This document shows positions 1 to 35,811 of a stretch of DNA of 44,572 nt, piece after piece. The notes under the pieces were generated by a model. It searched no databases. It was not told the origin of the DNA and saw nothing but the letters and a program-made list of their open reading frames with translations. Each line of letters starts with the position of its first letter. The first letter of the stretch is position 1. Source of the stretch: a virus; the IMG/VR virus record IMGVR_UViG_3300009370_001180, positions 1-44,572 of that record. The stretch is one strand, 5' to 3'. A program made the translations under genes and the position numbers.

Positions 1-905
1 GGTTTCATTACAGAAAGATAACCCTCTTGGTCACCATACATTTTTTTAAATGTCTCTGGATCATGATCCGCTATTTTTTTCATTACGTATTCTCTTGGAG
101 CGGTATCTGACTTATCTATAAGTTGTGCTAATGATTTCAGCATACCTTTGTCTAATAGTTCTGCTGATGTCATAAACATACCATAGTCCATGGAATCCGG
201 ACCAATCTCTCTAGCATAATTTCTGATTACTCTTGATGCCATTGTTGTTATATCTTCTTTCATTTCATTTGCTCTTCTTAATGCGTTTGCAACATCTGGG
301 TGATCTGCTAGACCAGGAGCAATTCTATTAATAATATTATAAGCGGCTGTATAATTGCCACCTTTAACTCTTGGATGATTTAAAACACGATAAGCCTGTT
401 TAATTTGGTTGGTAGTAAACTTTTGGTTTCTTATTCGATCAACATCAGCAGATGTCATACCGTCTTCTTCAAATGGATAATCGTCTGGCGCATCTGGTCC
501 AGATGATGCATAATCCATACTAACCCAGTCAGTAAATTCGTCTGTCCTTTCAAGTTCTTGTAATTCTTCATCAGTTAAAGGTGTACCATCTATATATTTT
601 GCTCCATGTAGCTCATAAATCATATCACTAAAATCCTGCATTTCATATTCTATACTATTATGATCTATTTCTTTACCACGAAACATTATATTGGCATAAT
701 CAACTTTTGTTCCGCCTGGTGTTACACCTGCTTCTACTGCTGGTTTTTCTTTACTCCATAATTTTGTAAAGTCCAATGGTTCAGGTTTTTTATAATTTTT
801 TGCTCTTGCTTTTTCTATTCTATCACCAAGCTCTTTTGACGTCATGGTTGTTACTGGTCTAACTTGTGGTTTTTCTCTAGGGTTATTAAATTCGTTATAT
901 TTCAT
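1..905 (-). CDS. Unknown phage protein, C-terminus cut by window edge
   Basis: The reading frame is open from an ATG at 903-905 to the left edge with no stop, so the C-terminus lies outside the window. About 300 residues are visible. The protein starts MKYNEFNNPREKPQVRP, has a Lys/Glu/Pro-rich first 70 residues and an acidic middle. It ends in a helical region containing YRVLNHPRVKGGNYTAAYN and DPETFKKMYGDQEGY. I recognise no catalytic motif. The start follows the stop of the upstream gene by one base (TAATATG), so it is probably translationally coupled to it. Its beginning resembles the tagged neighbours only loosely (no I/L-x-E site). It could be a virion component, but that is a guess from context. 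Confidence 0.8.
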   Translation of the reverse strand, partial: MKYNEFNNPREKPQVRPVTTMTSKELGDRIEKARAKNYKKPEPLDFTKLWSKEKPAVEAGVTPGGTKVDYANIMFRGKEIDHNSIEYEMQDFSDMIYELHGAKYIDGTPLTDEELQELERTDEFTDWVSMDYASSGPDAPDDYPFEEDGMTSADVDRIRNQKFTTNQIKQAYRVLNHPRVKGGNYTAAYNIINRIAPGLADHPDVANALRRANEMKEDITTMASRVIRNYAREIGPDSMDYGMFMTSAELLDKGMLKSLAQLIDKSDTAPREYVMKKIADHDPETFKKMYGDQEGYLSVMK

Positions 906-906
906 A

Positions 907-1326
907 TTAATTAAATCCAAAATGTGTTACTTCTGGATATTTTGCTAAAATTTTTCTTGCTAATTCGTTATGATGTTTTACTTGTCTATTATCCCAACCT
1001 TCTGGTTTTCCGCCACCTATCATTGTAGCACCGCCTCCGGATCTATCAACTGTTGTTGGAATTTCTTGTGATGGTTTATCAATATTTTTTTGTAACCATT
1101 GTGTAGTACGTCCTATAAATTCTTTTGCATCTACTGGACTTGCACTTTCAAAATCACTGTCATATCCTAGTGTGTCTAAAAACTGACGCATACTCATATT
1201 ACTCATATAAGGTGTGTCTAATGCTTCGTCTTTTGCCCAAGCATCTGGAAAAGACCAAGTTTTTTCATCTTTTTTAAAGTAAGGTAACATTGATGCGCCT
1301 TCTTGAATAAATTCTTGTGCTTTCAT
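907..1326 (-). CDS. Putative head-packaged protein with T4-type capsid-targeting tag
   Basis: A 139-residue protein starting MKAQEFIQEGAS. This closely resembles the capsid-targeting sequence of T4 internal proteins (MKTYQEFIAEA), with I-Q-E followed by G as a likely prohead-protease cleavage site. The remainder is soluble and contains a Gly-rich stretch (SGGGATMIGGGKPEGW) and a conserved-looking C-terminus (HHNELARKILAKYPEVTHFGFN). Its function is unknown. An AATAAATA late box lies 5 bases upstream of the ATG with no Shine-Dalgarno sequence. Late expression plus the tag suggests delivery inside the capsid; this is inference. Confidence 0.75.
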   Translation of the reverse strand: MKAQEFIQEGASMLPYFKKDEKTWSFPDAWAKDEALDTPYMSNMSMRQFLDTLGYDSDFESASPVDAKEFIGRTTQWLQKNIDKPSQEIPTTVDRSGGGATMIGGGKPEGWDNRQVKHHNELARKILAKYPEVTHFGFN

Positions 1327-1331
1327 AGTAG

Positions 1332-1339
1332 TATTTATT
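1332..1339 (-). promoter_or_regulatory. Late promoter AATAAATA, 5 nt before ATG at 1326
   Basis: Minus-strand AATAAATA matches the T4 late promoter box TATAAATA except at the first base. Only 5 bases separate it from the start codon, so the mRNA would be leaderless or nearly so. The box overlaps the stop codon of the upstream zinc-ribbon gene. Confidence 0.65.
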
Positions 1340-1481
1340 TACAAGTGTCGCATCTACATTCACGGCATACTTCTATTTCATATTCTTCGCCGCCTTCAGA
1401 TGGATACCTATGTTCCGTTCTTGTAGCTCTAGTTTCGCAGTGTGAATCACCACCACAGTTCTTGCATTTTTTTAGTTCCAT
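1335..1481 (-). CDS. 48-residue Cys-rich zinc-ribbon-like protein
   Basis: A short gene of 48 codons plus stop, starting MELKKCKNCGGDSHC and ending CRECRCDTCK. It has seven cysteines: CxxC near the N-terminus, one more before the charged middle, and CxxCxC..C at the end. That pattern suggests one or two structural zinc sites. The start codon overlaps the preceding stop (TAATG), so it is coupled to the gene upstream. The function is not recognised; a small nucleic-acid-binding or adaptor role is possible. Confidence 0.65.
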   Translation of the reverse strand: MELKKCKNCGGDSHCETRATRTEHRYPSEGGEEYEIEVCRECRCDTCK

Positions 1482-1768
1482 TATGGATATGGTCTCCGTT
1501 GTACAGGCCCACCAAACATACTAGTACCTTTTCCTAATTCATGCCATGGTTTAGCTGTACCGTCTTTATTTTTCTTTTGTACTATTTTAGGTAGTTTTGG
1601 TGCTTTTGTGCCTGAACGTCCTGGTGATCCTATATAGGATTTATTACCTCTATCCTTGCCTATTGCAACGTGTGGTGATGTAACTGTTGCTATATTGCCG
1701 CTTGATGTAGCACCTGCAGTTGCTTGTTCACCTATTCGTTTATGTATTATAATTTCTGTAATTTTCAT
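1481..1768 (-). CDS. Small basic protein with possible capsid-targeting tag
   Basis: A 95-residue, Gly/Lys/Pro-rich and probably disordered protein. It begins MKITEIIIHKRIGEQATAG. The first residues match the MRINEI-type tags of nearby proteins, but the possible cleavage site (I-G-E before Q) is later, at about residue 14. The C-terminus carries a KPWHELGKGTSMFGGP stretch. A CATAAATA late box sits 6 bases before the ATG. The basic, low-complexity composition would suit a head-internal DNA-associated protein, but this is inference. The tag is weaker here than in the other carriers. Confidence 0.65.
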   Translation of the reverse strand: MKITEIIIHKRIGEQATAGATSSGNIATVTSPHVAIGKDRGNKSYIGSPGRSGTKAPKLPKIVQKKNKDGTAKPWHELGKGTSMFGGPVQRRPYP

Positions 1769-2640
1769 TACTTATATTTATGGGAAAAGTAGTGGGCAAA
1801 CGAAAAGGTTTGCATAGAAACTGTAGGGTTTCCACTAGTTACATTATATGCGTCTAGAAAATATATTTTATTCTTTTTGTTAATGTTAAATGTTATATGA
1901 AATGATCCTCCAATATATTGTGGATATTGTGTAAAATATGGTAAAACATAAGGGTCAGCTAAAGTACCACGTTTTTTAAAAAGATCTATCCATTTTGTTC
2001 TTGGAAAGTTATAATTTTTCTGATTATCCTTATATGCCCCATTACGTTGATACCAAAGTTCTTGTTTTTCACAATCTTTTTTAATTTTATTAATTTTATT
2101 GTTTCTATCTAAAACAATATCAAAAAATTGAGGTATTGGCCACTCCAGTCTGGGTTTTTCGCTCCGGATCGAAAAATCCTTATCTTTTTCAATCTTAGAT
2201 ACTAATTTTTTGTATAGGTTTTCTTGGAATTCGAAAAAAAACTGCCCATTGTTTTTTAAAAGTTCTTTTGGACAAAGTATAAAAAAATTTGGTTCTATTA
2301 GTGATGACTTTGACATAAATCCATTAGTATAATTACTATCATCATTGTCAACTTCAATTCTAACTTCTCCAGTAAGTTTTTCTTCTTCAATTTCAATTAA
2401 TTTTAAAAATTTTGGAATTTTACATTTAATTTGAATTAGATCAGGAATGGAGAGAGAATTATGGTTAAACCGTTTGAGTTTTTTCATAAAACTTTTTATT
2501 ATACTTGTGGGTATTTCTATATGATTGATGTCTTGTGTTAATTGATATGTTTCAATTAAATTATTGTTTATATAAATTCTAATTGTTGCATTTTTTTTAT
2601 ACTTTTTATATAGTAAACCAATACCTAATATATAACTCAT
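1768..2640 (-). CDS. Hypothetical phage protein
   Basis: A 290-residue soluble protein, rich in Lys, Asn and Ile, with no motif I can assign. It starts MSYILGIGLLYKKYKKN. The N-terminal 90 residues look like beta strands (TIRIYINNNLIETYQL). The C-terminal half contains an aromatic segment (LPYFTQYPQYIGGSFHITF). It overlaps the preceding methyltransferase-like gene by 4 bases (ATGA), so the two are co-translated and may act together. A virion-surface or modification role is possible but unsupported. Confidence 0.7.
   Translation of the reverse strand: MSYILGIGLLYKKYKKNATIRIYINNNLIETYQLTQDINHIEIPTSIIKSFMKKLKRFNHNSLSIPDLIQIKCKIPKFLKLIEIEEEKLTGEVRIEVDNDDSNYTNGFMSKSSLIEPNFFILCPKELLKNNGQFFFEFQENLYKKLVSKIEKDKDFSIRSEKPRLEWPIPQFFDIVLDRNNKINKIKKDCEKQELWYQRNGAYKDNQKNYNFPRTKWIDLFKKRGTLADPYVLPYFTQYPQYIGGSFHITFNINKKNKIYFLDAYNVTSGNPTVSMQTFSFAHYFSHKYK
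1775..1782 (-). promoter_or_regulatory. Late promoter CATAAATA, 6 nt before ATG at 1768
   Basis: A minus-strand CATAAATA box with a 6-base gap to the start codon and no Shine-Dalgarno sequence. It has the same geometry as the other late boxes in the window, and lies inside the 3' end of the upstream coding region. Confidence 0.55.
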
Positions 2641-3380
2641 ATTTTTTTGATTTTTCCGTTTTCAAATTTTAATCTTATACCATTGGATATAAAAATTCCA
2701 TTTATTCTGTTAGAAATAAGCTCTGTCTTAAAACCTAAAATTTGATACCTATGACTTGACACCTTTGGTATATTAATGTTCAGATTGAATAGATCAATTT
2801 CAATATCTTCTTCAATTAAATCTTCAATTATATCAGTTTCCATTTTAACATTACAAATTCCATCACCAAATTGTCTTTTAATATAATCATTACCAATTTT
2901 TTCAGGTTGATAATAAGTCTTATCTATGTAATCACTATTAAATTTAAAAATTTTTAATCGTATCGGATTTGGAATAATTCTTGCAAAATTTTTCCACTTA
3001 TACATATGTTCCCATGTTTTAAAATCATATGCTCTAGTCCATATTTGTTCCCATACAACATAGTCAAATCCTTCCAAAGGATCATTACGCAGGTCATAAA
3101 CAATATGATTAATTTTAGGGTAATATCTTTTTCCAATATTAACGCAAAGTTGACCTAAATCAGAATTTGTTACTTTTGCACCTAAGTTTCTAAGAGTATC
3201 GGCATTTCTGCCTACTCCTCCTGCTATTGTTAAAATTTTTTTATTATTAAAGTCGTAAGGCAACTTAGATATATTTTCAAACATTATTTTTTTCCGTAAA
3301 CCTGAATTAGCGTCCCAAGTTGAGTTTCCTGCTCCCATAACAGGATCGTCATTATTACCAAAACTTCTAAGGTGTATCAT
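2637..3380 (-). CDS. Class I SAM-dependent methyltransferase-like protein
   Basis: A 247-residue protein. Residues about 48-72 read ILTIAGGVGRNADTLRNLGA followed by KVTNSDLG. This is the glycine-rich motif I and acidic strand-2 end of a Rossmann-fold SAM methyltransferase. An FDYVVWEQIW segment is in the position of motif IV. The C-terminal third is beta-rich and diverged. The substrate is unknown. It overlaps the next gene by 4 bases. The N-terminus (GNNDDPVMGAGNSTWDANSGLRKK) resembles phage-borne methyltransferase-like proteins. The fold call is fairly sure; catalytic activity is not. Confidence 0.6.
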   Translation of the reverse strand: MIHLRSFGNNDDPVMGAGNSTWDANSGLRKKIMFENISKLPYDFNNKKILTIAGGVGRNADTLRNLGAKVTNSDLGQLCVNIGKRYYPKINHIVYDLRNDPLEGFDYVVWEQIWTRAYDFKTWEHMYKWKNFARIIPNPIRLKIFKFNSDYIDKTYYQPEKIGNDYIKRQFGDGICNVKMETDIIEDLIEEDIEIDLFNLNINIPKVSSHRYQILGFKTELISNRINGIFISNGIRLKFENGKIKKI

Positions 3381-3402
3381 ACGTATAAAGTAATTATTTG
3401 TA

Positions 3403-4050
3403 TTATCTAAGGTGTAATTTTTTTACGTTCTTATATTCGTCGCCAGGTTTGACGTCTTTAGTGGTGTTTTGTTTGGTAATAATACCAACACCGGCGGCAT
3501 CTTCTTTTTTGTATATGTTTTGAATTTTATCAATCAAAGGTGGCCAATTTTCTGCAATGACTTTGGCTTGAACTTCTGCCAATTTATAATCTTTTTTAAT
3601 TATATTTTGAGCCATTTGTAATCCATGCATTAAAGAAGATTGAGCTTCACCTAATGCTCTTGCTGGTGCAAATTGATCTACCTCTTCTTTTACTTGTTTG
3701 TGTTTAATGTATGCGTCAATAATTTTGTCATCCATATCGTGTAATGCTTTCCATTCTGGCATATCAACATATGGTTTTGCTATAGGATTGTTATGATCTT
3801 GTTCTATCGGTGCTTCATTAGTTTTATTTTTGCTTTTGTTATAAGAAGCCCAAGCAACTGCATATGGATTATCAACCTTGCCTTTTAATGCTTTAACTTG
3901 TTTTTCTCTGCCAGGAGGTGCTTTTTCGTTGGCTCTGTTGTTGCCTTTATTTTTAAAGTCAAAACCCCCACCAGGTTTTCTAATTAAACCCATAGGTTTA
4001 ATTGATTGGGGCATTATCAGCCATTCACCTATAATTTCATTAATTCTCAT
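3403..4050 (-). CDS. Putative head-packaged protein with MRINEIIGE tag
   Basis: A 215-residue protein starting MRINEIIGEW, with an I-G-E cleavage-like site at residues 7-9. After the tag comes a basic, Gly/Pro-rich linker and then a GKVDNPYAVAWASYNKS segment. I associate that segment with small phage and prophage proteins; its role is unknown to me. The rest is helical and charged. It overlaps the 3' end of the thioredoxin-like gene by 11 bases, so it is expressed from the kinase operon whose late promoter is at 5291-5298. Capsid packaging is inferred from the tag. Confidence 0.7.
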   Translation of the reverse strand: MRINEIIGEWLIMPQSIKPMGLIRKPGGGFDFKNKGNNRANEKAPPGREKQVKALKGKVDNPYAVAWASYNKSKNKTNEAPIEQDHNNPIAKPYVDMPEWKALHDMDDKIIDAYIKHKQVKEEVDQFAPARALGEAQSSLMHGLQMAQNIIKKDYKLAEVQAKVIAENWPPLIDKIQNIYKKEDAAGVGIITKQNTTKDVKPGDEYKNVKKLHLR

Positions 4051-4420
4051 AATCTAATTTGTGTTCCTCAATAAAAATGTTAATTCTTATCATAAAATCG
4101 CCTTTGTCTCTATAACCAGTAAGTCTTGATAACTCTTTTTTACCATTCCATATAATAAATGTTGGTGTTCCTCTAATATGTTTAATTCTGTTTTCAGCAT
4201 ATGCTTCTTTAAACCATTCAGGTTGTTTATATACATTAATTATGACTAATGGAAGATACCTTGATTGTTCAGTATCGTTATAGTCTACTGCTACTTCGTT
4301 AATAAAATTTTGACAAATATTACAACCTGGATTGTGTGCCATTAACAATTGTAAGTGTTCTTTTGCATATATTGGAAAAGTAAATAATATAAAAAATAAA
4401 GTTAATAATAGTTTTTTCAT
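4040..4420 (-). CDS. Exported thioredoxin-fold protein
   Basis: A 126-residue protein with a clear signal peptide (MKKLLLTLFFILFTFPIYAKE) and then a thioredoxin-like fold. A CNIC redox pair (CxxC) is near residue 36, and the cis-proline region is RGTPTFIIWNGKKE around residues 84-97. It is close to the SoxW/DsbE-like group of periplasmic thioredoxins. It probably acts in the host periplasm on disulfides, perhaps during virion or surface protein maturation. It sits in an operon with a membrane protein and two tagged proteins. The fold is confident; the partner is unknown. Confidence 0.75.
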   Translation of the reverse strand: MKKLLLTLFFILFTFPIYAKEHLQLLMAHNPGCNICQNFINEVAVDYNDTEQSRYLPLVIINVYKQPEWFKEAYAENRIKHIRGTPTFIIWNGKKELSRLTGYRDKGDFMIRINIFIEEHKLDYEN

Positions 4421-4678
4421 CTACCATCTCCATGGCAACATTGACATACCTACTAGATTAAAATACATCTCAATAAGGTAGATACATATTATCAACATAG
4501 ATGTTTTGAATATAAATCTATATGGTTGAGGTAGACTATTCTGCCATCTATTAAATCTACTACCTTGTACCTTTTCATGCATATTGGTTTTATCGGCTAT
4601 TTTGTTTGCCCAGTAATTTGCAGATAATATGTTTGACAACATCTTAAAAGGCCATAATATAATTCTAAGTATTTTCAT
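4421..4678 (-). CDS. Small membrane protein
   Basis: An 85-residue protein with a hydrophobic N-terminal segment (ILRIILWPFKML), a charged middle and one clear transmembrane helix near residues 58-80 (FIFKTSMLIICIYLIEMYF). It overlaps the kinase gene by 4 bases and directly abuts the exported thioredoxin-like gene, so it may anchor or partner that protein at the inner membrane. No family is recognised. Confidence 0.65.
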   Translation of the reverse strand: MKILRIILWPFKMLSNILSANYWANKIADKTNMHEKVQGSRFNRWQNSLPQPYRFIFKTSMLIICIYLIEMYFNLVGMSMLPWRW

Positions 4679-5283
4679 TGCAAAAATTTTCTAATGTCTT
4701 TTTCAACTTGTACTATTTGTTCAGGCATTGTGTCTTGTTCATCATCAGAATTATTAATAATATGTACGTCATTAAACAAACGTTGAAATCTTCCTAAATT
4801 TTGTTCTATAACTTCAAAATTTTTATGTATAAGATCGTCAGGTAATTGACGTTCTCTTTGTTTGTTTCTACGTAAAGCAGTTTGTAAATCAGTGTTGACA
4901 AAAACCATTGTTGTTTCATATCCTTTATCTTCTAATCCACTTTTTATTCTTTCAATAGTTTCATATACTCTACCTGTAGAATCTATTAGCAAACCTAATC
5001 CACTTTCGGTGTGTAATTGTTGTTGTTTAGCAACTAATTCTTTTGATCTTTGTCTTTGTTTTTCTCGTTCAGGTTCCTCTTCAGGAGGCATTTTCCATGA
5101 TAAGTTTTTCTTTGTCATGAGACGTTTAAACCAAGTGTCCATGTTTACTTGTTTTAATCCTTGGAATACACCTGCTAATTTTCTAGCAACATATGTTTTA
5201 CCTGCACCAGGAGAGCCAGCAAAAAATATTGCTTTATGTCTAAAAGGATCGTGTGGACCTTCTAGGATTTCATTTATTCGCAT
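4675..5283 (-). CDS. Zeta/AAA_33-like P-loop kinase with capsid-targeting tag
   Basis: A 202-residue kinase-type P-loop protein. Residues 1-10 form the tag MRINEILEGP, with I-L-E before G as the cleavage-like site. Walker A (GSPGAGKT) is at about residues 23-30. A DSTGRVYET segment, an FVNTDLQTALRRNKQR lid-like segment and a C-terminal helix follow. This matches the zeta toxin/AAA_33 kinase superfamily, which phosphorylates small molecules or nucleic-acid ends. I chose ATG 5281-5283 because the tag begins there and a late box lies 7 bases upstream. The longer frame starting at 5328 would overlap the radical SAM gene and has no promoter. The substrate is unknown; if packaged, it would enter the host with the DNA. 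Confidence 0.75.
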   Translation of the reverse strand: MRINEILEGPHDPFRHKAIFFAGSPGAGKTYVARKLAGVFQGLKQVNMDTWFKRLMTKKNLSWKMPPEEEPEREKQRQRSKELVAKQQQLHTESGLGLLIDSTGRVYETIERIKSGLEDKGYETTMVFVNTDLQTALRRNKQRERQLPDDLIHKNFEVIEQNLGRFQRLFNDVHIINNSDDEQDTMPEQIVQVEKDIRKFLQ

Positions 5284-5290
5284 ATATGAA

Positions 5291-5298
5291 TATTTATT
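5291..5298 (-). promoter_or_regulatory. Late promoter AATAAATA, 7 nt before ATG at 5283
   Basis: Minus-strand AATAAATA ends 7 bases before the kinase ATG, with no Shine-Dalgarno sequence between them. It drives the kinase, membrane protein, thioredoxin-like and MRINEIIGE genes. Confidence 0.65.
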
Positions 5299-6385
5299 GA
5301 AATATCCAAGAGTGTAAAAATGGATCAACGTCTATTAGTTTTAAGTGTCTATGCGAATCTTGTTCAGTAATTTCGTCTTTTAACGCATTATGTGATGATT
5401 TTACATATTTCGCTGTCGAGTATTTTTTGATTAGATAGTTTATTTCACTTCTGAATTGTGAAGCATAATAAACAGATACAGGAAATTTTAATAGTTTTTT
5501 AATATTATTAATGTATGTTTCTCTGTATTCCAATGGTACACTACATTCTAAAAAAATTTCGGGTTCATTTAAAATAGATATATTAATATGATTTGAATAT
5601 TGCTTCATCCATGAGCAAGTTTCGTATAATTTGTGAGAAGTTAAATTACTTGCAACTAAATTAAATTGTAGAAAGTTTGCATTCTCACTTACAAATTTAA
5701 CGTTTTGTTCAAATTCATCCCAACCTAAAGGATAACGTACATATGTACCAAGTATACCAACAGCATCACAAGAACAAATTATTGTTAAATTTTCAAATTT
5801 TTTAATTATTTCTTTCCATGGAGCAGGCAGTCTTTTTAGATTTGTGTTAATAATTACTTCACAAAAAGGATTAACAAGATGTAAAGCATTTAAAAATTCT
5901 AAATAGTCTTTTATAAAAGTGGGTTCTCCTCCTGCAAGGTAAACTTTTTTAAGTATTTTTTTATCTAATGTATGGATATAATTTTGATTTTCTTCATTTA
6001 TAGAAATTTTTATGCCTTTTTCTTTTGCCCATAAAGTGCTTTCTTCTGCATTACAAGTTTTACATTTTAAATTACAAGTTGGATTGTATCTAATATCTGC
6101 AAATTGTATTTTTGGATTATCTATGTCTGGAGTACCAAATTTTTTAATCCAATCGTTGGTTTCTCTTATTCTATGACTCCAATTTGATTCTTTTTCACTT
6201 TTGTAACAATTACTACATACATCAGGTTGTATGCCCTTCAACATAGAGTCTCTTACATAATCTATGGTTTGGTTATTTTTGTATTTTTGTGCATGGCAAC
6301 AAGGAGCAGATTGTCCAGTTATATTTTTAAACTCATGGACCCATGGTAAAATACATATTGCTTTGTTTTGTTTAACATCAAACAT
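5294..6385 (-). CDS. Radical SAM protein, twitch/SPASM-like
   Basis: A 363-residue protein. A Cys-rich N-terminus (CILPWVHEF, CCHAQKY, CSNCYKSE) precedes the radical SAM [4Fe-4S] motif CNLKCKTC (CxxxCxxC) at about residues 107-114. Then come a GGEPTF SAM-binding motif and the TIM-barrel strands (INTNLKRL, ICSCDAVG). The early cysteines may bind an auxiliary cluster, as in twitch-domain enzymes of marine phages. It would catalyse a radical reaction on an unknown substrate, perhaps a peptide. A variant late box (ATTAAATA) lies 6 bases upstream. The family is sure; the product is unknown. Confidence 0.85.
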   Translation of the reverse strand: MFDVKQNKAICILPWVHEFKNITGQSAPCCHAQKYKNNQTIDYVRDSMLKGIQPDVCSNCYKSEKESNWSHRIRETNDWIKKFGTPDIDNPKIQFADIRYNPTCNLKCKTCNAEESTLWAKEKGIKISINEENQNYIHTLDKKILKKVYLAGGEPTFIKDYLEFLNALHLVNPFCEVIINTNLKRLPAPWKEIIKKFENLTIICSCDAVGILGTYVRYPLGWDEFEQNVKFVSENANFLQFNLVASNLTSHKLYETCSWMKQYSNHINISILNEPEIFLECSVPLEYRETYINNIKKLLKFPVSVYYASQFRSEINYLIKKYSTAKYVKSSHNALKDEITEQDSHRHLKLIDVDPFLHSWIFQ

Positions 6386-6391
6386 TGCCAG

Positions 6392-6399
6392 TATTTAAT
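6392..6399 (-). promoter_or_regulatory. Late-type box ATTAAATA, 6 nt before ATG at 6385
   Basis: Minus-strand ATTAAATA, a one-base variant of the AATAAATA boxes, with a 6-base gap to the radical SAM start and no Shine-Dalgarno sequence. Confidence 0.5.
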
Positions 6400-6415
6400 T
6401 TGTAAAATTTAGGTA

Positions 6416-6622
6416 TTATTTTTTTGGCATTGGGTTCTCACCTGTTAGTTTGGGTCTAGCAAACCACAGTTTAAACCATTCTTCTGTTCCAGGACGGACA
6501 TTATGTTTTCTTTGATATTCTGCTTTTTTTGTTCCATGAAGAGAAAGGTTTTCTCCCATTGAATCTTCTACAGGTAAATTCTCAATGCCTGCTAATTTTT
6601 TTAAACGTTCTAAATCTTCCAT
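6416..6622 (-). CDS. Small hypothetical phage protein (LERLKKLAGI type)
   Basis: A 68-residue charged protein that starts MEDLERLKKLAGIENLP. This N-terminal helix recurs in small T4-type phage proteins. The C-terminus (KHNVRPGTEEWFKLWFARP) is conserved-looking, with aromatic residues. It overlaps the upstream small gene by 13 bases. The function is unknown. Confidence 0.65.
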   Translation of the reverse strand: MEDLERLKKLAGIENLPVEDSMGENLSLHGTKKAEYQRKHNVRPGTEEWFKLWFARPKLTGENPMPKK

Positions 6623-6789
6623 GATCTTAATTGTTCTTTGGTAGGCTTATGATCTTTTAATTTTTCTACTTTGCCGCCTTTGGCTAAAAACTCTTGCATT
6701 TTTTTATCTAACTCTCTTTGTTTTTCTTGTGGTGTTTTTGGTATTTCACCTGTTGTGTATGCTCTATTGATCCCGCTGAATTTTGCCAT
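6610..6789 (-). CDS. 59-residue hypothetical protein
   Basis: A short gene starting MAKFSGINRAYTTGEIPKT and ending LRSWKI. It is basic and helical, with no membrane segment or known motif. A GGAAAT Shine-Dalgarno-like stretch precedes the ATG at 6787-6789. It overlaps the next gene by 13 bases. The KDHKPTKEQLRSWKI tail looks like a short helix-turn. It is probably real because it fills an otherwise empty 190-base space and has good initiation signals. Confidence 0.6.
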   Translation of the reverse strand: MAKFSGINRAYTTGEIPKTPQEKQRELDKKMQEFLAKGGKVEKLKDHKPTKEQLRSWKI

Positions 6790-6801
6790 ATTTCCTTTTT
6801 G

Positions 6802-7467
6802 TTATTTAATTAAAATTTTTCCAAATTCTAGTTCTTTGCTTTTATCTTTTATATGATCTGTAATATACCAATTTCCTGAAACAGAAATACGTTCTACATC
6901 TGATCTAAATGGTGGTACAGTATGTTTTAATGATGAATGAAATATCCATAAATCATTTATAGTAGGGAGTATTCCATGACCAGTGCTAATACCTTTTTGT
7001 TCTTCTCCATATATAAAACTTATTGTTCCAGGTCCACTACCTCGTCCTTCAAATGCTTGATCTTCTTTTTTTAATTCTTCTGGAACTTGCAAGTATAAAA
7101 CAAATGAAAAGTCTCCAGTATGATTATGTGGAGGATTATATTCTCCCTTTTTCATAAAATTAATCCATAATGTTGCGAGCCATATTTCTTTAAAAGGATC
7201 CATACCATAATAGTAATTGGGATCTGATTTGTCTTGTAATTTTTTAAAATAAGGAATAAAATAGTTTTGAAAATTATCAACAAACCATTTCTTATCTAGG
7301 TCTTCGAAGATATTTTCCTTTTTCATATGACCTGCAAGATTTTTAACGTGTGATCTAGTTGTTTTATGACCACGATTTAATAGTTCTTTACAGAGATCAG
7401 TATTACATTTTGTGCCACCTATTACTGGTCCAAAGTGAAGATATCTATGATTGATCTGATTTACCAT
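6802..7467 (-). CDS. 2OG-Fe(II) oxygenase-like protein
   Basis: About 221 residues of double-stranded beta-helix type. The iron site is suggested by PPHNHTGDFSFVLYL (HxH region, about residue 115) and by a distal His with the 2OG-binding Arg in LKHTVPPF..RISVSGN near the C-terminus. This is the pattern of the phage YubA-like 2OG-Fe(II) oxygenase family. It would hydroxylate an unknown substrate. ATG 7465-7467 is preferred over the in-frame TTG at 7476. The start lies within the 3' end of the NMNAT-HAD gene, implying co-transcription. Confidence 0.7.
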   Translation of the reverse strand: MVNQINHRYLHFGPVIGGTKCNTDLCKELLNRGHKTTRSHVKNLAGHMKKENIFEDLDKKWFVDNFQNYFIPYFKKLQDKSDPNYYYGMDPFKEIWLATLWINFMKKGEYNPPHNHTGDFSFVLYLQVPEELKKEDQAFEGRGSGPGTISFIYGEEQKGISTGHGILPTINDLWIFHSSLKHTVPPFRSDVERISVSGNWYITDHIKDKSKELEFGKILIK

Positions 7468-8617
7468 ATTGGTCAAGTGCTTGTTTTACTTTAGTTAGTG
7501 AATCTCTATTTGCTTGATATAAAATTCCATAACCTCCCGCTCCCTGCCAACGTTCAATATTAACTGGCCTGTCGTCTATTAAAATATTTGGTGTACCAGA
7601 TGCTTTGTCTTTTGCATAACTTTCTTTACGTCCTGTTATTACAATTTCATCTGGTTGTTCAATGTTATTTTGTATCCATAATTTTTTGTATTTGGTAGAG
7701 TTTTCATTGTCACCTCTTAAAGGAGATGTGTTAATTGAAAAGTTTCCACCAGTAAACTCTTTAACCATTGATATTAATTCACCAGCACTATCAAATTTAG
7801 GAAGTGTTGCAAAAAAATCTGTGCCTGATATTCTATTAATAACTTCTTGTTTTAAATCTTTAGTTTTGTCTGAACTTAATTCTTTCCAGTGTTGTACGCC
7901 ATACATTTTTTCAACACCACCAAAGAAGTCAGCCAAAACGCCATCCATGTCAATATATACTATTGGTTTACCGTCCATATCTTCATTATACAACTTTTTG
8001 TTGTTTTCAGCAACCTGGACTCCAAGTGCGTCTTGTATTTTATCGTATAGTACTTTACCAGCATCACCGCCCATTACTATTTTAGAAAATTCATGTTCCT
8101 GACCTTTTAGTGCCAACTCTCTTGCCTTAGATGCTGAAACACCTGCTATGTCATCTGCGTCTGGATCTCTTTGTCCAGCACTGACTACTTGGACGTCATC
8201 AAATTTATAAGGAATGTTACCTTGCTTATCTGGATTGCCGTTATATTGATTTAAAAATTTTTGGAATTCCATTACACGATCATCACCAGCAACCATTATT
8301 ACTCTTGTTCTACCTTGTGCTTCTATTTTTTGTAATGCTTGAATAATTGTTTTTACATCTGCACTTCCAATTTGCAAATTAGGATCATTTACTTGACTTG
8401 TAATGTATGCTTGTTTCTCTTGAAACGTTAATGGATCTTTTTTATTGTTTTGTGTATGTGTTAAAAATAGATATCCTTTGCCATTGACTTGTCTAGCCAT
8501 TGACTGTACTTTTTCTATTAATTTTTGGTGTCCTATTGTGGGAGGATTGAATCGGCCAAATGCAAAGACGGCTGTGGACCTGTCATCCTCCTTAAGAAAC
8601 AATTCCCTTAGGTGCAT
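7445..8617 (-). CDS. NMN adenylyltransferase-like / HAD nucleotidase fusion with capsid-targeting tag
   Basis: A 390-residue two-domain protein. Residues 1-11 (MHLRELFLKED) resemble the T4 Alt leader (MELITELFDED), with L-K-E as cleavage-like site. Residues about 16-200 form a nucleotidyltransferase domain with GRFNPPTIGH (HxGH-type motif) and VSASKARELAL (the SxxxxR-type motif), like NMNAT/NadM. Residues about 215-385 form a HAD domain with YIDMDGVLADFF (DxDG motif), ITGRKESYAKDK and LIDDRP, like 5'(3')-deoxynucleotidases. It probably makes NAD+ or a related dinucleotide and cleaves a nucleotide phosphate. It overlaps the upstream tagged gene by 26 bases. Domain calls are strong; the substrates and the packaging are inferred. 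Confidence 0.8.
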   Translation of the reverse strand: MHLRELFLKEDDRSTAVFAFGRFNPPTIGHQKLIEKVQSMARQVNGKGYLFLTHTQNNKKDPLTFQEKQAYITSQVNDPNLQIGSADVKTIIQALQKIEAQGRTRVIMVAGDDRVMEFQKFLNQYNGNPDKQGNIPYKFDDVQVVSAGQRDPDADDIAGVSASKARELALKGQEHEFSKIVMGGDAGKVLYDKIQDALGVQVAENNKKLYNEDMDGKPIVYIDMDGVLADFFGGVEKMYGVQHWKELSSDKTKDLKQEVINRISGTDFFATLPKFDSAGELISMVKEFTGGNFSINTSPLRGDNENSTKYKKLWIQNNIEQPDEIVITGRKESYAKDKASGTPNILIDDRPVNIERWQGAGGYGILYQANRDSLTKVKQALDQYGKSDQS

Positions 8618-8948
8618 CGTATTCGCCTTGTTCTATATTTTCTTTTTCTCTATTTGCAATTATTTGAGCAACTTGCAGTCTAGTTTCTTTAGGAAACATA
8701 TCTTTAACATCTTGGTCAGGTGTGCCAAATTCTTGTACGTATTGTCTTGCGGCATCATCAACAAGATACATCCATAATTTAATTACTTTTTCGTGATCGT
8801 ATATGCCTCTTTTCATTTTTCTTTTAATATTTGTTATAATAGGCATAAAACGTCTACGATATAAATCTTCATCGTTCATAATAAACAAGTCTAACTCGTT
8901 TATTGCGTCTGAATCTTGTGCTTCTGTTATGAATTGATTTGCTCTCAT
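8592..8948 (-). CDS. Putative head-packaged protein with MRANQFITEA tag
   Basis: A 118-residue helical, charged protein. Its first ten residues, MRANQFITEA, are very close to the T4 internal-protein leader (QEFIAEA against NQFITEA), with I-T-E before A. The remainder has a helical YDHEKVIKLWMYLVDDAARQYVQEF segment and a KETRLQVAQIIANREKENIE tail, with no enzyme motif. It lies behind its own late box and is translationally coupled to the NMNAT-HAD fusion downstream. The two may therefore be co-packaged; this is inference. Confidence 0.72.
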   Translation of the reverse strand: MRANQFITEAQDSDAINELDLFIMNDEDLYRRRFMPIITNIKRKMKRGIYDHEKVIKLWMYLVDDAARQYVQEFGTPDQDVKDMFPKETRLQVAQIIANREKENIEQGEYDAPKGIVS

Positions 8949-8955
8949 ATAAGCA

Positions 8956-8963
8956 TATTTATT
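8956..8963 (-). promoter_or_regulatory. Late promoter AATAAATA, 7 nt before ATG at 8948
   Basis: Minus-strand AATAAATA with a 7-base gap to the start of the MRANQF gene and no Shine-Dalgarno sequence. Box and spacing match the kinase late promoter at 5291-5298. Confidence 0.65.
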
Positions 8964-9620: not shown

Positions 9621-12600
9621 TTACTTTTCTATTGGTATAAATTTGTCAGTTTCTAAATCGTAAACTAATCCGTGTTTTGTTGCGTTGTTTTCGTTGTTAT
9701 TGGAATATAGATTTGCTTTTAATACTTCTTCACCATTTTCATTTTTTTCATAACATTTTGGATTTTTCTTCCATAAAAAATTACAATTTGTGTTTAACTT
9801 TTTAACAAAGTTGAATGCTAGGTTAACACCGTCCTGTCCAGCAACACCTGATATATCTTTTCTGTATTCTGTTTTAAAATTAAAAGAAAAATCCATGTCA
9901 TTTTTTGGAGTGTGTTTATAAAAGAATCCAATGTCTTTCTCTATTGTGCTTGAACTCATCTCAGAATTAATATCTGTATAATTTACTGTTCCATCTAATG
10001 TTCTAGATTCAGGGACTGATAAATTCATTGTACCATTTGTAATATGACTTGGTGTTGATAATGTAAATCCCCAAGTGTTATTTTGATCTTTGTGTATTTT
10101 ATATGCTAGTTTCATTGATTCTGTTTCAATATTATCAAATCCTGTTATTAAACTATTGTCAATTGTATTAACATCTGTGTAACCTTTTGAATAATCAAAA
10201 CTTAATACATTGTTACCTAATTGATATTCAACACCTATTTGTCCAAAGTTTGTAATGTTATTATCACCAACTGCAAGAACACCATCTGAAGAGTTACCTA
10301 ACCAGTTGTCTTGTTCGTTCATTTGTCCTATTGATGTTTTTAATTTAAATTTATCACTTAACATAAAGTTTTTACCTACATTTAAAGAATAGTCTCCATT
10401 ACCACCATCACCTGTGTATAAGCCAAAGTTCATAAATCCTAGATCGTAATTTCCACCTTGTGTAAAATTACCGTACATAGATTGTATTGGAAGATATGTG
10501 TTCCCTTGCATTGTTGCATCAACGTCAGAAATTTTTCTCGTATCTTTAACTGTAAAACCAGATCCTAAATTAATATAATAATCCCTTTCATATTCGTCTA
10601 GTATCATTACTTTTAAATTTGCTAAATTACTTGGCAACGCAGTACCAGTTGAGAAATATGTTCCATATGTTCCTACTAATGGTCCATTTGTTCTACCTGT
10701 TGTAGGAATACCTACTGCACCTTGAGGTTTTGTTGCTTCGTCTAAATCTAATAATCCTTGTCCATGTACATTAACATCATAACCTGTTAAATTTTTATCT
10801 GCTGTCGATAATACAAGTTTAACTAAATTTTCACCTTTCATGTGTGGCCACATTTGATTTATTACACCAAATGCACCAGTAACGTGGGGTGCCGCCATAC
10901 TAGTACCAGACATATTCATATATCCATTACCCGATAAATGTGTAGGTGTTGAACTATAAATCATATCACCCGGTGCTAATATATAAAAGTCTGAAATTTT
11001 GTTTGTATCATTACAAGTATTGTTAGATGTATTAATATCTAAACATACATGGCCTGCTTTGTTACCTTGAACATTTGAGCCATCCCAGTTACCTACTATA
11101 ACCATTTTGCCACCTAACACAAGATTTCCATTTGCATCGGTTTCAACTGCCCATATACCAGGATCACCTGCGTGATTATGTCCGGTGTTACCTGCCGAGT
11201 TTACTAAAATAATATCATTGTCTGTTGCAATTTTCCAATATTTTCCTTGACCGTCACCAACGTTGACTGCCGCAGTAATTTCTGTTGCGTTGTATGTGCC
11301 ATCTGATAATTGAATTACTGTTGAACCATTATTCCATGTCCAATCATTTGAACCACTAGTAAATACTGTTGGAGAGTTAAAACTCATATTAACTGCAACA
11401 ATGTTTAAGTTTTCACCATTTGGATCTTTTAATTTTGCAAAATCGTGTAATGCCTGTTGAGCATAACTTTTTGAGATACCACCAAATCCATAATAGTCAA
11501 CATTAGCACCAACTAGATCTGCATCAAAAGCCACACCGTGATTTCCTGTGCCATCTTTTTTACCTGCTATAATACCTGCAACGTGTGTACCGTGAACCTG
11601 TGTATTACCTGAAGTAGATACCGTGTTGTCATATCTTGTATAATCATTGTAAAATTTATATTTGCCATTTAATTCTGGGTGATTAGTTTGTTGGTATGTA
11701 TCAATTACTCCTAATACTGCACCTTTACCTGTCCACCCTTTAGCATAAGCCTCCGCGGCATTTATTGTATTCAATCCGTGGTTTCTATTAAATTCAGTAG
11801 TTTTATGATCTGATACAACTGTAGACATATTTTCTGTTTTTGTTCCAAGTGTGTTATCTGTATCTGTGTATGCATTTGATATAACAACCTGTGCAATCTG
11901 TGTACCTGAATCAGCAGTTGTACTAACTGTGTTTGCAGTTGTTGAACTTACTTCTCTTTCTTCGGTTCTTGTAGAAGTATCAATAGTAGAAGCCACCCAG
12001 TCGCCAGTCACTACTGTTGCAGTACCATTTATAATTTCAGTTGTACCATCTTTGTATGTGTTTTGTATTTTAGGTGTAGTAGTTGTAATTGTTCTTGTAT
12101 TTTTCTTTGTAATATCTGTGTATGTTCTAACAAAATATACTCTTGTTGTTACAGGAGTTGTCACGGTAGTATCAACATATCTAACTGTCGTTCTTGTTGT
12201 AGTATTGTTTCCATTGTTAACGTCAGTTACTACATCTCTATTAGCAGTTGTAGTTGTTGTCGTGCCATTTGTAGTAGATGTTTGTTCGTCACCATCTGCA
12301 TAATTTGTTACAACATAGTTGTCGCTTGTTTCAGTAACCGTAGTTACTGTTGCTTCTAATGTTGTTGTACCTGTAACTGGATTGTCTCCTTCTCTAGTTT
12401 CAGTAACTTCTGTAATTGTTGGGTCTAAAGTTGTTGTAGAAACAGTCGGTGTTCCATATGTGCAGGCACTATCAACAGTTGAACCATTTAATAAAGTCGT
12501 TCTAACTATCGTACAAGGTGTTGTTGTAGTAGTTCGATAATTAGGTGTAGTAGTTGTAATTGTTCTTGTTTCTTGTCCACCCCCTTGATATACAGTTACC

Positions 12601-13244
12601 CATGAACTAGTAGATGATTGTACTTCACCTTGTGAATCAACAGTAGAAATTGTAGGTGTGCCAGCAATTGTTGCCGTACTTTTAATTTTTTTAGTTTCAG
12701 CATAACTTGTTGCAGTTGTATCTTTTTCTATATTAATAATTTCTTGTGCTTTAGCTTCTTTTACAACTAAATTATATTCTGTAATAGAAACTGCATTACC
12801 ATTTGATACTTTTTGTATAATAGGTTTAACATAATTTTTCATATAGAGAATGGCCGCATATGCTTCTTTGTATGAGTTAGAGTTATAAATTGTGTATTTG
12901 TCACCATCGCTTTGTTGTGCGATTAAATCTTCTGTTGCTGACCAAAGTGCTTCTGCTTGATTAAGTTGTCCTAATAATGTATTTGCGGTTGCAATATCTT
13001 CTGCATTAGGTCCTGTTAATACTGCCTGTATGGCAGAATAATCACCACCTGATATAGTTGATTGAAAACTTGATAATAAACTTGAATATGAACTTACAAT
13101 AGATTCAGAACCTGATAAATTGGATAAATCATCATTAATAAAATCGTTAACGGCACCCGGAGCACCACCACCTCCTCCACCACAAGCGGTTAATGATAAT
13201 CCTGCCAATCCAGCTAATATTGTATTTTTAAATTTAGATGTCAT
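9621..13244 (-). CDS. Subtilase (S8) lipoprotein with autotransporter-like C-terminus
   Basis: A 1207-residue protein. A lipoprotein signal peptide ends in the lipobox LTAC (Cys at about residue 20), followed by a Gly run. Residues about 190-460 are extremely Thr-rich, with repeated TTTTP and VTET stretches. A peptidase S8 domain follows with catalytic Asp515 (GVIDTYQQ), His551 (HGTHVAGI) and Ser782 (GTSMAAP), plus the oxyanion Asn in SAGN. The last about 320 residues show alternating strands typical of an autotransporter beta-barrel (LGFMNFGLYTG, FGQIGVEYQLG, LAFNFVKKL), with an unusual tail of about 60 residues after the last aromatic strand. It would be exported, lipidated and surface exposed. 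It is coupled (ATGA) to a 61-residue membrane protein behind an early promoter. It is probably host-derived. Confidence 0.88.
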   Translation of the reverse strand: MTSKFKNTILAGLAGLSLTACGGGGGGAPGAVNDFINDDLSNLSGSESIVSSYSSLLSSFQSTISGGDYSAIQAVLTGPNAEDIATANTLLGQLNQAEALWSATEDLIAQQSDGDKYTIYNSNSYKEAYAAILYMKNYVKPIIQKVSNGNAVSITEYNLVVKEAKAQEIINIEKDTTATSYAETKKIKSTATIAGTPTISTVDSQGEVQSSTSSWVTVYQGGGQETRTITTTTPNYRTTTTTPCTIVRTTLLNGSTVDSACTYGTPTVSTTTLDPTITEVTETREGDNPVTGTTTLEATVTTVTETSDNYVVTNYADGDEQTSTTNGTTTTTTANRDVVTDVNNGNNTTTRTTVRYVDTTVTTPVTTRVYFVRTYTDITKKNTRTITTTTPKIQNTYKDGTTEIINGTATVVTGDWVASTIDTSTRTEEREVSSTTANTVSTTADSGTQIAQVVISNAYTDTDNTLGTKTENMSTVVSDHKTTEFNRNHGLNTINAAEAYAKGWTGKGAVLGVIDTYQQTNHPELNGKYKFYNDYTRYDNTVSTSGNTQVHGTHVAGIIAGKKDGTGNHGVAFDADLVGANVDYYGFGGISKSYAQQALHDFAKLKDPNGENLNIVAVNMSFNSPTVFTSGSNDWTWNNGSTVIQLSDGTYNATEITAAVNVGDGQGKYWKIATDNDIILVNSAGNTGHNHAGDPGIWAVETDANGNLVLGGKMVIVGNWDGSNVQGNKAGHVCLDINTSNNTCNDTNKISDFYILAPGDMIYSSTPTHLSGNGYMNMSGTSMAAPHVTGAFGVINQMWPHMKGENLVKLVLSTADKNLTGYDVNVHGQGLLDLDEATKPQGAVGIPTTGRTNGPLVGTYGTYFSTGTALPSNLANLKVMILDEYERDYYINLGSGFTVKDTRKISDVDATMQGNTYLPIQSMYGNFTQGGNYDLGFMNFGLYTGDGGNGDYSLNVGKNFMLSDKFKLKTSIGQMNEQDNWLGNSSDGVLAVGDNNITNFGQIGVEYQLGNNVLSFDYSKGYTDVNTIDNSLITGFDNIETESMKLAYKIHKDQNNTWGFTLSTPSHITNGTMNLSVPESRTLDGTVNYTDINSEMSSSTIEKDIGFFYKHTPKNDMDFSFNFKTEYRKDISGVAGQDGVNLAFNFVKKLNTNCNFLWKKNPKCYEKNENGEEVLKANLYSNNNENNATKHGLVYDLETDKFIPIEK

Positions 13245-14406: not shown

Positions 14407-15055
14407 TTTTTATTTTTACATATTTTATAACTTTATCTATTGCTTTTTGTGCTAACATATAGATTGGAGTTAACATTTTTTGCTCACTTACATAAAAATA
14501 CCCGTGATAACAATGTGGATATTTTCCTTCAAGATAGTCTAATACATATTTGTTAGTAACTAAACAGTTATCCACATTTCGTTCTAAGAAGTGCCATAGG
14601 TTTTGTCTTTCTTGTTTTGTAATATGTTGATGTACGTCTTTCTTTAAATGTATTTGATATTGATATTTGTCGTGTGGTAATCTTCGACACCCAATTGTAT
14701 TTTTACCTAATTTATTATATTTTGGATCAATGCTTTTTGCTCCATACCAAGAATCCCAAAATGTTTCAATTAATAATTGTGCCAGACTTTTATTAGAATA
14801 AAAAATTGCATACTTTTGTTGTAGCCTAAATTTCATTTTTGTTCTATGATCTAAAATAAATTGTGCTAATTTAATTACATCTGGTGATGTTTTATACCAT
14901 TTTGTATTAAGATACCTTACACTTTTATCTTTACCTTGAATCATCTCTAAAAGTTTTTGATCTGTTGTGGGATATAAAATACCTGCCCATGGCATTTTAA
15001 AGATATTTTTAAATTGGTACTTACCGTAATATAATTTATTATGATGGATTCTCAT
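14375..15055 (-). CDS. Hypothetical protein of early operon
   Basis: A 226-residue, very basic protein (MRIHHNKLYYGKYQFKNIFK start, NESNKKIKRK end) with many Tyr, His and Lys residues. It contains YQYQIHLKKDVHQHITKQE and the helical KLAQFILDHRTKMKFRLQQKY. It overlaps the clpA-like stop by 17 bases. The family is not recognised. Charge and position suggest an early nucleic-acid-associated protein, but this is not demonstrated. Confidence 0.65.
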   Translation of the reverse strand: MRIHHNKLYYGKYQFKNIFKMPWAGILYPTTDQKLLEMIQGKDKSVRYLNTKWYKTSPDVIKLAQFILDHRTKMKFRLQQKYAIFYSNKSLAQLLIETFWDSWYGAKSIDPKYNKLGKNTIGCRRLPHDKYQYQIHLKKDVHQHITKQERQNLWHFLERNVDNCLVTNKYVLDYLEGKYPHCYHGYFYVSEQKMLTPIYMLAQKAIDKVIKYVKIKNESNKKIKRK

Positions 15056-21370: not shown

Positions 21371-21830
21371 GAATTAAACCAGGCTTGTAGACTGTTTTTC
21401 CATTTTCTTTCATCGCTGTTAATGATGCGTTGCGATTGTCTTCTGTTTTATAACTAACATGAATCCAACCAGAATCTGGTATGCCTGGTGTGTAAAATTC
21501 CAAAATTAATTGGTCAAAATCAAGGTTATCTTCAATCCACTTGGCAACGTCATAGTTTGGAGTGCCTGGACATTCTATATCTACTGCTTGTCCTTTACAA
21601 TGTTGTGAAGTATTTGAACCACCAATTGCATAGTTTAAATCACCACTTCTATATCCTGAATTAATTACTGTTACGCCAAAGTTATCTCTAACAGGTTGTA
21701 CTACATTTTCAAATAATGCTTTTGCATTTTCTAAATGTCCTTCAACAGGAGTATTATCAATGCCTCTTCGTTCAGCAGTTTGACTTTTAGTAAATTCTTG
21801 TAAACTGAAATTTTCGCTTAATCTTACCAT
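21366..21830 (-). CDS. M15-family peptidase, probable endolysin
   Basis: A 154-residue zinc peptidase of the M15 (D,D-carboxypeptidase/endopeptidase) family. An INSGYRSGDLN substrate-region motif is followed by SQHCKGQAVDIE, giving the SxHxxGxAxD metal ligands, and by GWIHVSY with the second His. It would cleave peptidoglycan stem-peptide bonds. It lacks a signal peptide, so release depends on the holin. It is followed by spanins and downstream by the holin candidate. It overlaps the previous gene by 7 bases. Confidence 0.88.
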   Translation of the reverse strand: MVRLSENFSLQEFTKSQTAERRGIDNTPVEGHLENAKALFENVVQPVRDNFGVTVINSGYRSGDLNYAIGGSNTSQHCKGQAVDIECPGTPNYDVAKWIEDNLDFDQLILEFYTPGIPDSGWIHVSYKTEDNRNASLTAMKENGKTVYKPGLIQ

Positions 21831-22564
21831 CCACTTTTACTTAACAAAGCCGACTCTTGGCCTTTAGAAAAAATGAATCTGTCTTCTGTAGTTTTGGTAA
21901 TTTGATATGGTCCAAAATATTTTGTGAGGTAGATACACTCACTCATTGCTTCTTGATCTATTTTAAATGCTTTTACTTCGTTTATTATCATTTGTGTATC
22001 ACCAAATGCGTGTAATTCAAATTTAAGTGCTTCTGCATTTTGTTTTTTTATGTCAACAATATTGTTATCTAACTTAAATTCCATCATATTAAACTTATCA
22101 AAGAAATTTTTTACTTCACCTAATCTTAATGAACTAATTTTTTGTGTGTATGCTATTGGTGTTCTTGGTAATACATCCGCTAGATTCTTTGCTGATGCTT
22201 CAAATGGTACATCTCTTTTATGATATGTAAAATGGAACGTCTCAATATTAGTTAATTTTTTAAGGTCTTCTAAAAATTTATAAATGTGTCGATCAACTTT
22301 TTCATCTCTTTGAAACTCAACAAATACTCTATGTTTGCCATCTGCCATTGTGCCTGGCGTAGCATCTGCATCTAATACTTCTTTGTATCCAGTTTCAGCG
22401 AAACGTTCTAAATCTTTTGCTGGTGCTAAACCATTAACAACAAATGCAAGAACCATAATGTTCCTGTCATCGCCCATTTTTGATTTGTATCGATCTACTG
22501 AAAACGTTTTTGAAACAACGCCTTCTAAATCGCCAGCTTTTAATCCTTCATTAAATTGTTGCAT
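21824..22564 (-). CDS. Conserved phage protein of unknown function
   Basis: A 246-residue soluble protein. The N-terminal part is short and acidic. A domain of alternating strands and helices follows (DRNIMVLAFVVNGLAP, HRVFVEFQRDEKVDRHIYKF, IETFHFTYHKRDVPF), and the C-terminus contains CIYLTKYFGPYQITKTTEDRF. It overlaps the upstream gene by 14 bases and the endolysin gene by 7. I recognise no catalytic site. It may be a virion or packaging-associated protein of marine T4-type phages. Confidence 0.65.
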   Translation of the reverse strand: MQQFNEGLKAGDLEGVVSKTFSVDRYKSKMGDDRNIMVLAFVVNGLAPAKDLERFAETGYKEVLDADATPGTMADGKHRVFVEFQRDEKVDRHIYKFLEDLKKLTNIETFHFTYHKRDVPFEASAKNLADVLPRTPIAYTQKISSLRLGEVKNFFDKFNMMEFKLDNNIVDIKKQNAEALKFELHAFGDTQMIINEVKAFKIDQEAMSECIYLTKYFGPYQITKTTEDRFIFSKGQESALLSKSGW

Positions 22565-35798: not shown

Positions 35799-35803
35799 AT
35801 TAA

Positions 35804-35811
35804 TATTTATT
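35804..35811 (-). promoter_or_regulatory. Late promoter AATAAATA, 5 nt before ATG at 35798
   Basis: Minus-strand AATAAATA with a 5-base gap to the iscA start and no Shine-Dalgarno sequence. Confidence 0.62.

Follow-up and report, generated by a model that had tools for sequence, protein, structure and literature searches.

Putative T4-type capsid-targeting leaders on a cluster of unrelated proteins in an uncultured marine phage

Introduction

In phage T4, internal proteins (IPs) and Alt carry a short N-terminal leader, the capsid-targeting sequence (CTS). As described in PMC9026906, targeting depends mainly on residues 4 and 7 of this leader, whereas its processing, which occurs at L/I-X-E, depends mainly on residues 8 and 10, and both the IPs and Alt are ejected. 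According to PMC12373910, Ip1-3 block GmrSD nucleases (restriction). In this study, we analysed a stretch of 44,572 bases, in the following called the window, which is a fragment of the IMG/VR virus record IMGVR_UViG_3300009370_001180. Six genes between positions 907 and 8948 of the window, named here after their coordinates (Table 1), encode proteins that start with related leaders ending in a putative cleavage site of this type and are referred to as tagged proteins. Based on comparison with related phages, the assignment of these leaders as T4-type capsid-targeting propeptides is well supported, and it seems quite likely that most of the tagged proteins are packaged in the head of this virus and cut by its prohead protease. 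In support of packaging and cleavage, the site is conserved and matches the one on the capsid protein, protease and tagged genes occur together in relatives, and in Pseudomonas phage PA5oct the tag is enriched among the proteins flagged by mass spectrometry (MS).

Results

Tagged genes and relatives of the window

Contigs encoding a protein 100% identical to the 7445-8617 product extend to 137,583 bases in G001, the longer counterpart of the window. Relatives of the same protein were found with 80% identity on record G005 (196,581 bases) and with 70% on record G006 (172,389 bases). For the clamp loader, PA5oct-type jumbo phages of Pseudomonas were nearest (53.6%). The capsid protein of G005 shared 73% identity with its counterpart in Sinorhizobium phage Phosso and 68% with the PA5oct protein.

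All six tagged open reading frames (ORFs) of the original prediction were recovered on the minus strand with the proposed starts, and 6/6 leaders harbored [I/L]-x-E within the first 14 residues, namely FIQE↓G, IGE↓Q, IIGE↓W, ILE↓G, FLKE↓D, and FITE↓A (the arrow marks the predicted cut). For the kinase gene, the ORF list gave a TTG further upstream as start (4675-5328); the ATG at 5283, however, agrees with the relatives and with the promoter. As had been claimed, the six bodies are unrelated; the best mutual match reached an E-value of 0.048 over 15 residues, and none was significant. A search for further tagged proteins, also proposed there, revealed a seventh leader at 21824-22564, whose family displayed [FILV]-x-E↓GL in 6/6 distinct sequences, window copy included.

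Conservation of the cleavage junctions

Families were gathered by BLAST over 297 loci, each anchored on its body. In the four families scored, the conserved body started directly after the E, and the leaders varied in sequence and length (3-27 residues). P3, the residue two positions before the E, was I, L, V, M, or F in 100/101 distinct sequences of these families; the same residues made up 18-37% of the remaining leader positions. The residue in between (P2) varied, and the retention of the site under a varying P2 fits selection on a protease site. The E abutted the body in 24/26 distinct sequences of the 907-1326 family (two of these within a longer protein), 15/15 distinct N-termini of the kinase family, 20/26 distinct N-termini of the 8592-8948 family, and 44/45 distinct sequences of the 1481-1768 family, counts that do not represent independent events, since the sequences of a family are mutually related. 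One of the two misses in the 907-1326 family reads IRE↓GAT and was not caught by the pattern. The 7445-8617 family retained the site in 45 of its 56 distinct N-termini.

The junctions also reappeared in other contexts. Remote relatives of the kinase keep the site under other leaders (FILKE↓GLYDP in HTVC008M, ELQE↓GVYDP in Melnitz), while in G005 and locus L254 the 907-1326 body forms the C-terminal end of a longer protein (in G005 of 594 residues, starting with MRFSEF) with the junction retained inside as LAGLGE↓GASMLPYY. In Agrobacterium phage Atu_ph07 (L334, 5260-7596), the kinase relative forms the middle of a 778-amino-acid (aa) protein and is preceded by EVTE↓GVND. This protein additionally displays an N-terminal MKWNDLNE↓A and a capsid-arm-like C-terminal end, ITE↓TSSAGSTGAGNVAT, and possibly represents a head-cargo polyprotein. 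A likeness of its N-terminus to ADP-ribosyltransferases was an impression by eye and was dropped, as Pfam gave no match. Further tag starts in relatives were detected on a DUF6321 protein in record G011 (MRAQEFITE↓A). A nucleotidase-chitinase fusion and a protein with a nucleotidyltransferase domain also start with the tag but show no clear second site; CWKGY-type proteins of relatives revealed ITE↓K, ILE↓G, and similar ends.

A strict, family-wide site scan flagged 2/74 families for G001 (1481-1768 and 21824-22564) and 4/93 for G005 (the capsid protein and the relatives of 1481-1768, 8592-8948, and 21824-22564). A control stretch resulted in 0 and 2 families, the two being the capsid protein site and a badly aligned family with leader lengths of 8-80.

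Match to the capsid protein and the prohead protease

Matching sites on the capsid protein, for which the original prediction had suggested a search, were identified at the sequence level in relatives: L-x-E or I-x-E preceded ATAGAT or a close variant in 75/75 distinct sequences, of which 70 were found by pattern and five by eye among the best 80 loci listed, all of them proteins of relatives and not of the window virus itself. The junction reads KKYLSE↓QATAGATSAGNVATLN in the capsid protein of G005 and IGE↓QATAGATSSGNIATVT in the 1481-1768 protein. The capsid proteins of relatives also carry an additional earlier site of the LTE↓G type. The strict capsid-junction pattern gave 74 distinct matches among 34,619 ORF translations, which by context were all capsid proteins or members of the 1481-1768 family, though it overlooks the copies of 1481-1768 in G005 and in G006, the latter having been dropped in ORF picking. 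In PA5oct it matched the capsid protein and EST35_0203, which is flagged 'ESI-MS/MS', and in the Atu_ph07 stretch the end of the kinase-containing protein. A search of the phage collection with 1481-1768 resulted in no match at E<=0.1.

A gp21-type protease was located in relatives and not in the window record or its longer contigs. Peptidase_S77 scored above the cut-off in G005 (4e-27), G016 (8e-26), and G011 (1e-25). Overall, it was present in G005, G008, and G009 (3/10 records) and in G011-G016 and G018 (7/10), i.e., in 10/19 distinct records, G004 being in both lists. The family cut-off was never passed by 14 control genomes, so that the search is validated only by the matches in the relatives. 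In G005, G016, and G011, genes for portal, scaffold, protease, and capsid protein co-occur with tagged genes, and PA5oct encodes a related protease (53%).

Frequency of the tag and MS data of PA5oct

In six related records, the tag-start pattern M[KR][AILVFYST]x[EDQ][FILV] matched 50/1238 ORFs, 42 of them at the first start codon and the other eight solely at a later ATG up to codon 26, compared to 12/5091 occurrences after internal Met (Fisher P=3e-25). This test is partly circular, because these leaders in part supplied the pattern and each ORF could contribute more than one start. In G001, six of the eight tag matches fell among 16/181 ORFs (P=4.5e-6). PA5oct, for which 93/445 coding sequences (CDSs) are flagged 'ESI-MS/MS' in the notes of the GenBank record (tables read by hand), is a more independent test. 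The unchanged pattern matched 6/93 MS-flagged CDSs vs. 3/352 others (P=0.0035), or 4/352 others when a start five codons downstream was counted (P=0.0073). A looser pattern (8/93 vs. 5/352) was devised after the data had been seen and was not relied on. Considering PA5oct ORFs down to 26 residues yielded six extra tag matches, none of them annotated genes.

Payload proteins

Pfam identified Zeta_toxin/AAA_33 in 4675-5283 and CTP_transf_like together with NT5C in 7445-8617, and no family in the other four of the six tagged proteins. Among these four, two had no PHROG match, and two only weak matches to PHROGs of unknown function. The P-loop kinase of the original prediction was recognizable (Zeta_toxin with 55.4 bits at a cut-off of 22.3; P-loop GSPGAGKT), and phmmer against the PDB indicated a weak likeness to L-seryl-tRNA(Sec) kinase (1.5e-4). 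The second payload had been described as a fusion of an NMNAT and a nucleotidase. Here the NT5C domain and a nucleotidyltransferase-like domain were found, while the label NMNAT is weakly supported and was dropped: the first domain matched CTP_transf_like with 27.4 bits (cut-off 21), and the best PHROGs were 'cytidyltransferase', with the NMNAT PHROG at 0.0012. For the fusion protein, phmmer against the PDB gave a 5' nucleotidase only at 0.0097.

AlphaFold models were considered for two of the small proteins. In 907-1326, residues 1-8 had a predicted local distance difference test (pLDDT) value below 50 and the first strand started from residue 10, right past the predicted cut. The model of 8592-8948 was helical, with a mean pLDDT of 58 for the first ten residues. 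A fold search with both models against the PDB gave no match at E<=0.001.

Late-promoter-like boxes

It had been proposed that every tagged gene lies behind a late promoter or directly downstream of one. In four of the six, a late-promoter-like TAAATA ends 5-7 nt before the ATG; no such box was found there for the genes starting at 4050 and 8617, both of which begin inside the end of the preceding gene. In G001, G004, G005, G006, G011, and G016, TAAATA peaked at a distance of 4-8 nt ahead of the start codon, with 16-27 boxes per record against a mean of 1.4-2.8 after shuffling. A Shine-Dalgarno-like motif was present in 14/121 genes with a close TAAATA vs. 445/1109 others (summed). Based on the close box and the rarity of this motif, the late mRNAs of these phages may be leaderless. 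For the MS-flagged genes of PA5oct, 25/30 boxes were located 19-32 nt upstream.

Observations against packaging and alternative explanations

Several observations weigh against packaging and cleavage of the tagged proteins. Ten of the 56 N-termini of the 7445-8617 family lack a leader and one fell into neither class, and the HTVC008M relative shows no clear site before the body. The remaining 6/26 N-termini of the 8592-8948 family belong to distant relatives with a different N-terminus and no leader. In G005, the counterpart of 1481-1768 has INNE↓Q and thus an N in the P3 position. As the second site was kept in only 4/17 distinct N-termini of the 3403-4050 family, this protein is, judged by its relatives, the weak member of the tagged set. 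The strict site scan did not flag 907-1326, 3403-4050, 4675-5283, and 7445-8617, and flagged 8592-8948 only via G005; some unflagged families may have had too few sequences for entry. Furthermore, the difference in PA5oct hinges on few proteins (six and three), and neither the 7445-8617 nor the 21824-22564 relative in PA5oct bears an MS flag; both are without leader, which is consistent with packaging but proves little. Finally, the Pfam search for S77 gave no match in the window record and G001-G004, and none of eight head/tail markers tested was found in G001, G004, or G006. Lacking these markers, the three records look like fragments without the head module, and the missing S77 in the window contigs is not decisive because G001 is also devoid of the markers.

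An explanation that differs from packaging of injected proteins over ejection only is that the tagged proteins are targeted to the head and cut, but act in assembly, DNA condensation, or capsid structure and not as host effectors. The 1481-1768 protein, which is small, very basic, and mimics the N-arm of the capsid protein, would suit such a role, as would a tagged 73-aa protein of PA5oct located between the portal and a core-like gene, and a G005 protein with the T4-like leader MSTFTHYLTE, which lies near tail sheath/tube genes and whose PA5oct relative is MS-flagged. However, two of the payloads are enzymes of nucleotide chemistry, which would be odd as structural parts, and T4 proteins with a CTS, such as the IPs and Alt, are ejected according to PMC9026906; we consider such a role without effector function possible but rather unlikely.

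The leaders might also be dead remnants, or bind a structure other than the head, such as tail or neck, in line with a related leader on the G005 protein 35537-36199, whose gene is separated by only a few others from those for tail tube and sheath. Yet a site retained under a variable P2 fits selection on a protease site, and leaderless relatives exist as an alternative state, so that this explanation appears very improbable. Alternatively, the N-termini could be alike through translation-start rules of leaderless late mRNAs (Lys/Arg as second codon) and not through targeting. Though the close promoter box of four of the six tagged genes (5-7 nt from the ATG) and the rare Shine-Dalgarno-like motif in genes of this layout are compatible with this, genes of the same layout without the tag exist (e.g., MFDVKQ and MSTPVW in G001), and the tag occurs without a close box in PA5oct. 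Start rules would, moreover, explain neither why E and P3 are conserved although their distance from the start varies nor why the site matches that of the capsid protein, and we regard them as a most improbable cause.

Other features of the window

Table 1. Tagged genes, their leaders and promoter-like boxes, and further candidate features in the window
Feature	Position	Strand	Remarks
Tagged protein, 139 aa	907..1326	minus	Leader MKAQEFIQE↓G; Pfam/PHROG at E<=0.01: none
Leader of 907-1326	1300..1326	minus	From junction comparison
Late-promoter-like TAAATA	1332..1337	minus	5 nt before ATG of 907-1326
Tagged basic protein, 95 aa, isoelectric point 10.7	1481..1768	minus	IGE↓QATAGATSSGNIAT, repeats the predicted mature N-arm of the capsid protein
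Leader of 1481-1768	1727..1768	minus	Starts with MKITEI, ends with IGE↓Q
TAAATA	1775..1780	minus	6 nt before ATG of 1481-1768
Tagged protein, 215 aa	3403..4050	minus	MRINEIIGE↓W; weak member
Tagged P-loop kinase (Zeta_toxin / AAA_33)	4675..5283	minus	MRINEILE↓GPHDP
Leader of kinase	5260..5283	minus	From junction comparison
TAAATA	5291..5296	minus	7 nt before ATG of kinase
68-aa ORF with MEDLERLKKLAGI	6416..6622	minus	LAGI motif
Tagged nucleotidyltransferase + 5'-nucleotidase (NT5C) fusion	7445..8617	minus	MHLRELFLKE↓D
Leader of fusion protein	8588..8617	minus	From junction comparison
Tagged protein, 118 aa, predicted helical	8592..8948	minus	MRANQFITE↓A
Leader of 8592-8948	8922..8948	minus	From junction comparison
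TAAATA	8956..8961	minus	7 nt before ATG of 8592-8948
Seventh tagged protein, 246 aa, outside 907-8948	21824..22564	minus	MQQFNE↓GLKAGDLE; Pfam: none
ORF cut by window end, candidate only	3..905	minus	Starts with MKYNEF; nearby [I/L]-x-E site: none

The ORF 3-905, directly past the cluster, continues in G001 (74663-76804), and its positional counterparts in relatives start with MRFSEF, MRFHEF, and MKFNEL. A motif like the LAGI of 6416-6622 is also located at the very end of the gp22-like scaffold in G005 and G016; an association with the tag system would be a guess. More generally, an ELxRIxKLAGI-like motif (e.g., G005 62525-63589) recurs where the scaffold ends, in small proteins encoded next to the tagged genes, and in some tail-region proteins. 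In the G005 fusion, it is also found just upstream of the internal junction (LAGLGE↓GASM). It may represent a second docking motif.

Apart from the tagged genes, 9621-13244 encodes a 1207-aa protein with a lipoprotein-like N-terminus and, by eye, a subtilisin-like catalytic region (HGTHVAG, GTSMAAPH), which seems unusual for a phage. The C-terminal region of the ORF 43075-44571 resembles adenylate/guanylate cyclases by eye. The ClpA-like 15039-17387 and the DnaJ-like 18047-18889 have counterparts that adjoin each other in PA5oct.

Discussion

Proposed mechanism and significance

If the tagged proteins are head cargo, the leader would join them to the prohead core late in infection, and an S77 (gp21-type) prohead protease would cut after [I/L/V/M/F]-x-E during shell maturation, as predicted for the major capsid protein. 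The bodies would remain in the head with the DNA and, by analogy to T4, probably exit with it into the next cell. Inside the host, the nucleotide enzymes and the small proteins might act early, perhaps as counter-defence; such an effector role is one that we infer from the T4 IPs and Alt.

A wider idea, which we put forward as a speculation unlikely to hold as a whole, is that the T4 superclade shares a head-loading address usable for any protein, and that it delivers a nucleotide kit of nucleotidyltransferase-nucleotidase and kinase in the first minute against NAD- or RNA-depleting defences. A second address would copy the cut site and N-arm of the capsid protein (1481-1768, the MS-flagged PA5oct protein, and the Atu_ph07 kinase protein), and cargo would also travel as protease-cut polyproteins.

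Provided that packaging and cleavage are true, a conserved cleavable leader lets the head cargo of uncultured marine phages be read from sequence and yields a list of candidate injected proteins, directly testable in the cultured relatives HTVC008M, Melnitz, and PA5oct. The T4 internal-protein principle would thereby widen from small inhibitors to enzymes.

Comparison with known systems

By title and abstract, papers on the 'capsid targeting sequence' in the open literature searched concern T4, P1, P22, and SPN3US, some of them T4-based vectors or vaccines. No report of such leaders in the marine relatives was found in the open literature searched, with most subscription journals outside the search.

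Like IPI, IPII, IPIII, and Alt of T4, the tagged proteins combine a short N-terminal leader with unrelated bodies, display an E at the cut with I/L two residues earlier, and go along with a gp21-type protease, here in relatives. The leader ends EFIQE and QFITE in the window resemble the T4 internal-protein leader MKTYQEFIAEA. Unlike in T4, none of the bodies is a known IP, nucleotide enzymes account for two of the payloads, the leader length ranges from 3 to 27 in the window families, and one body copies the N-arm of the capsid protein. PA5oct (Arenbergviridae) harbors the same tag on MS-flagged proteins, e.g., EST35_0150 (MKINDIITE↓G), as well as a related capsid protein and protease, whereas its payloads differ and its relatives of 7445-8617 and 21824-22564 are without leader.

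The giant phages SPN3US and phiKZ, with their ejection and inner-body proteins, likewise have head proteins that are cut after E by an S77-like protease, and some of which are ejected, as described in PMC9026906 and PMC13282480. The phiKZ motif is S/A-x-E, in contrast to L/I-x-E here. Altogether, the principle is already known from T4. Within the open literature searched, three aspects appear to be new: that it extends to this group of marine phages, that enzymes are among the payloads, and that a small basic protein copies the junction of the capsid protein.

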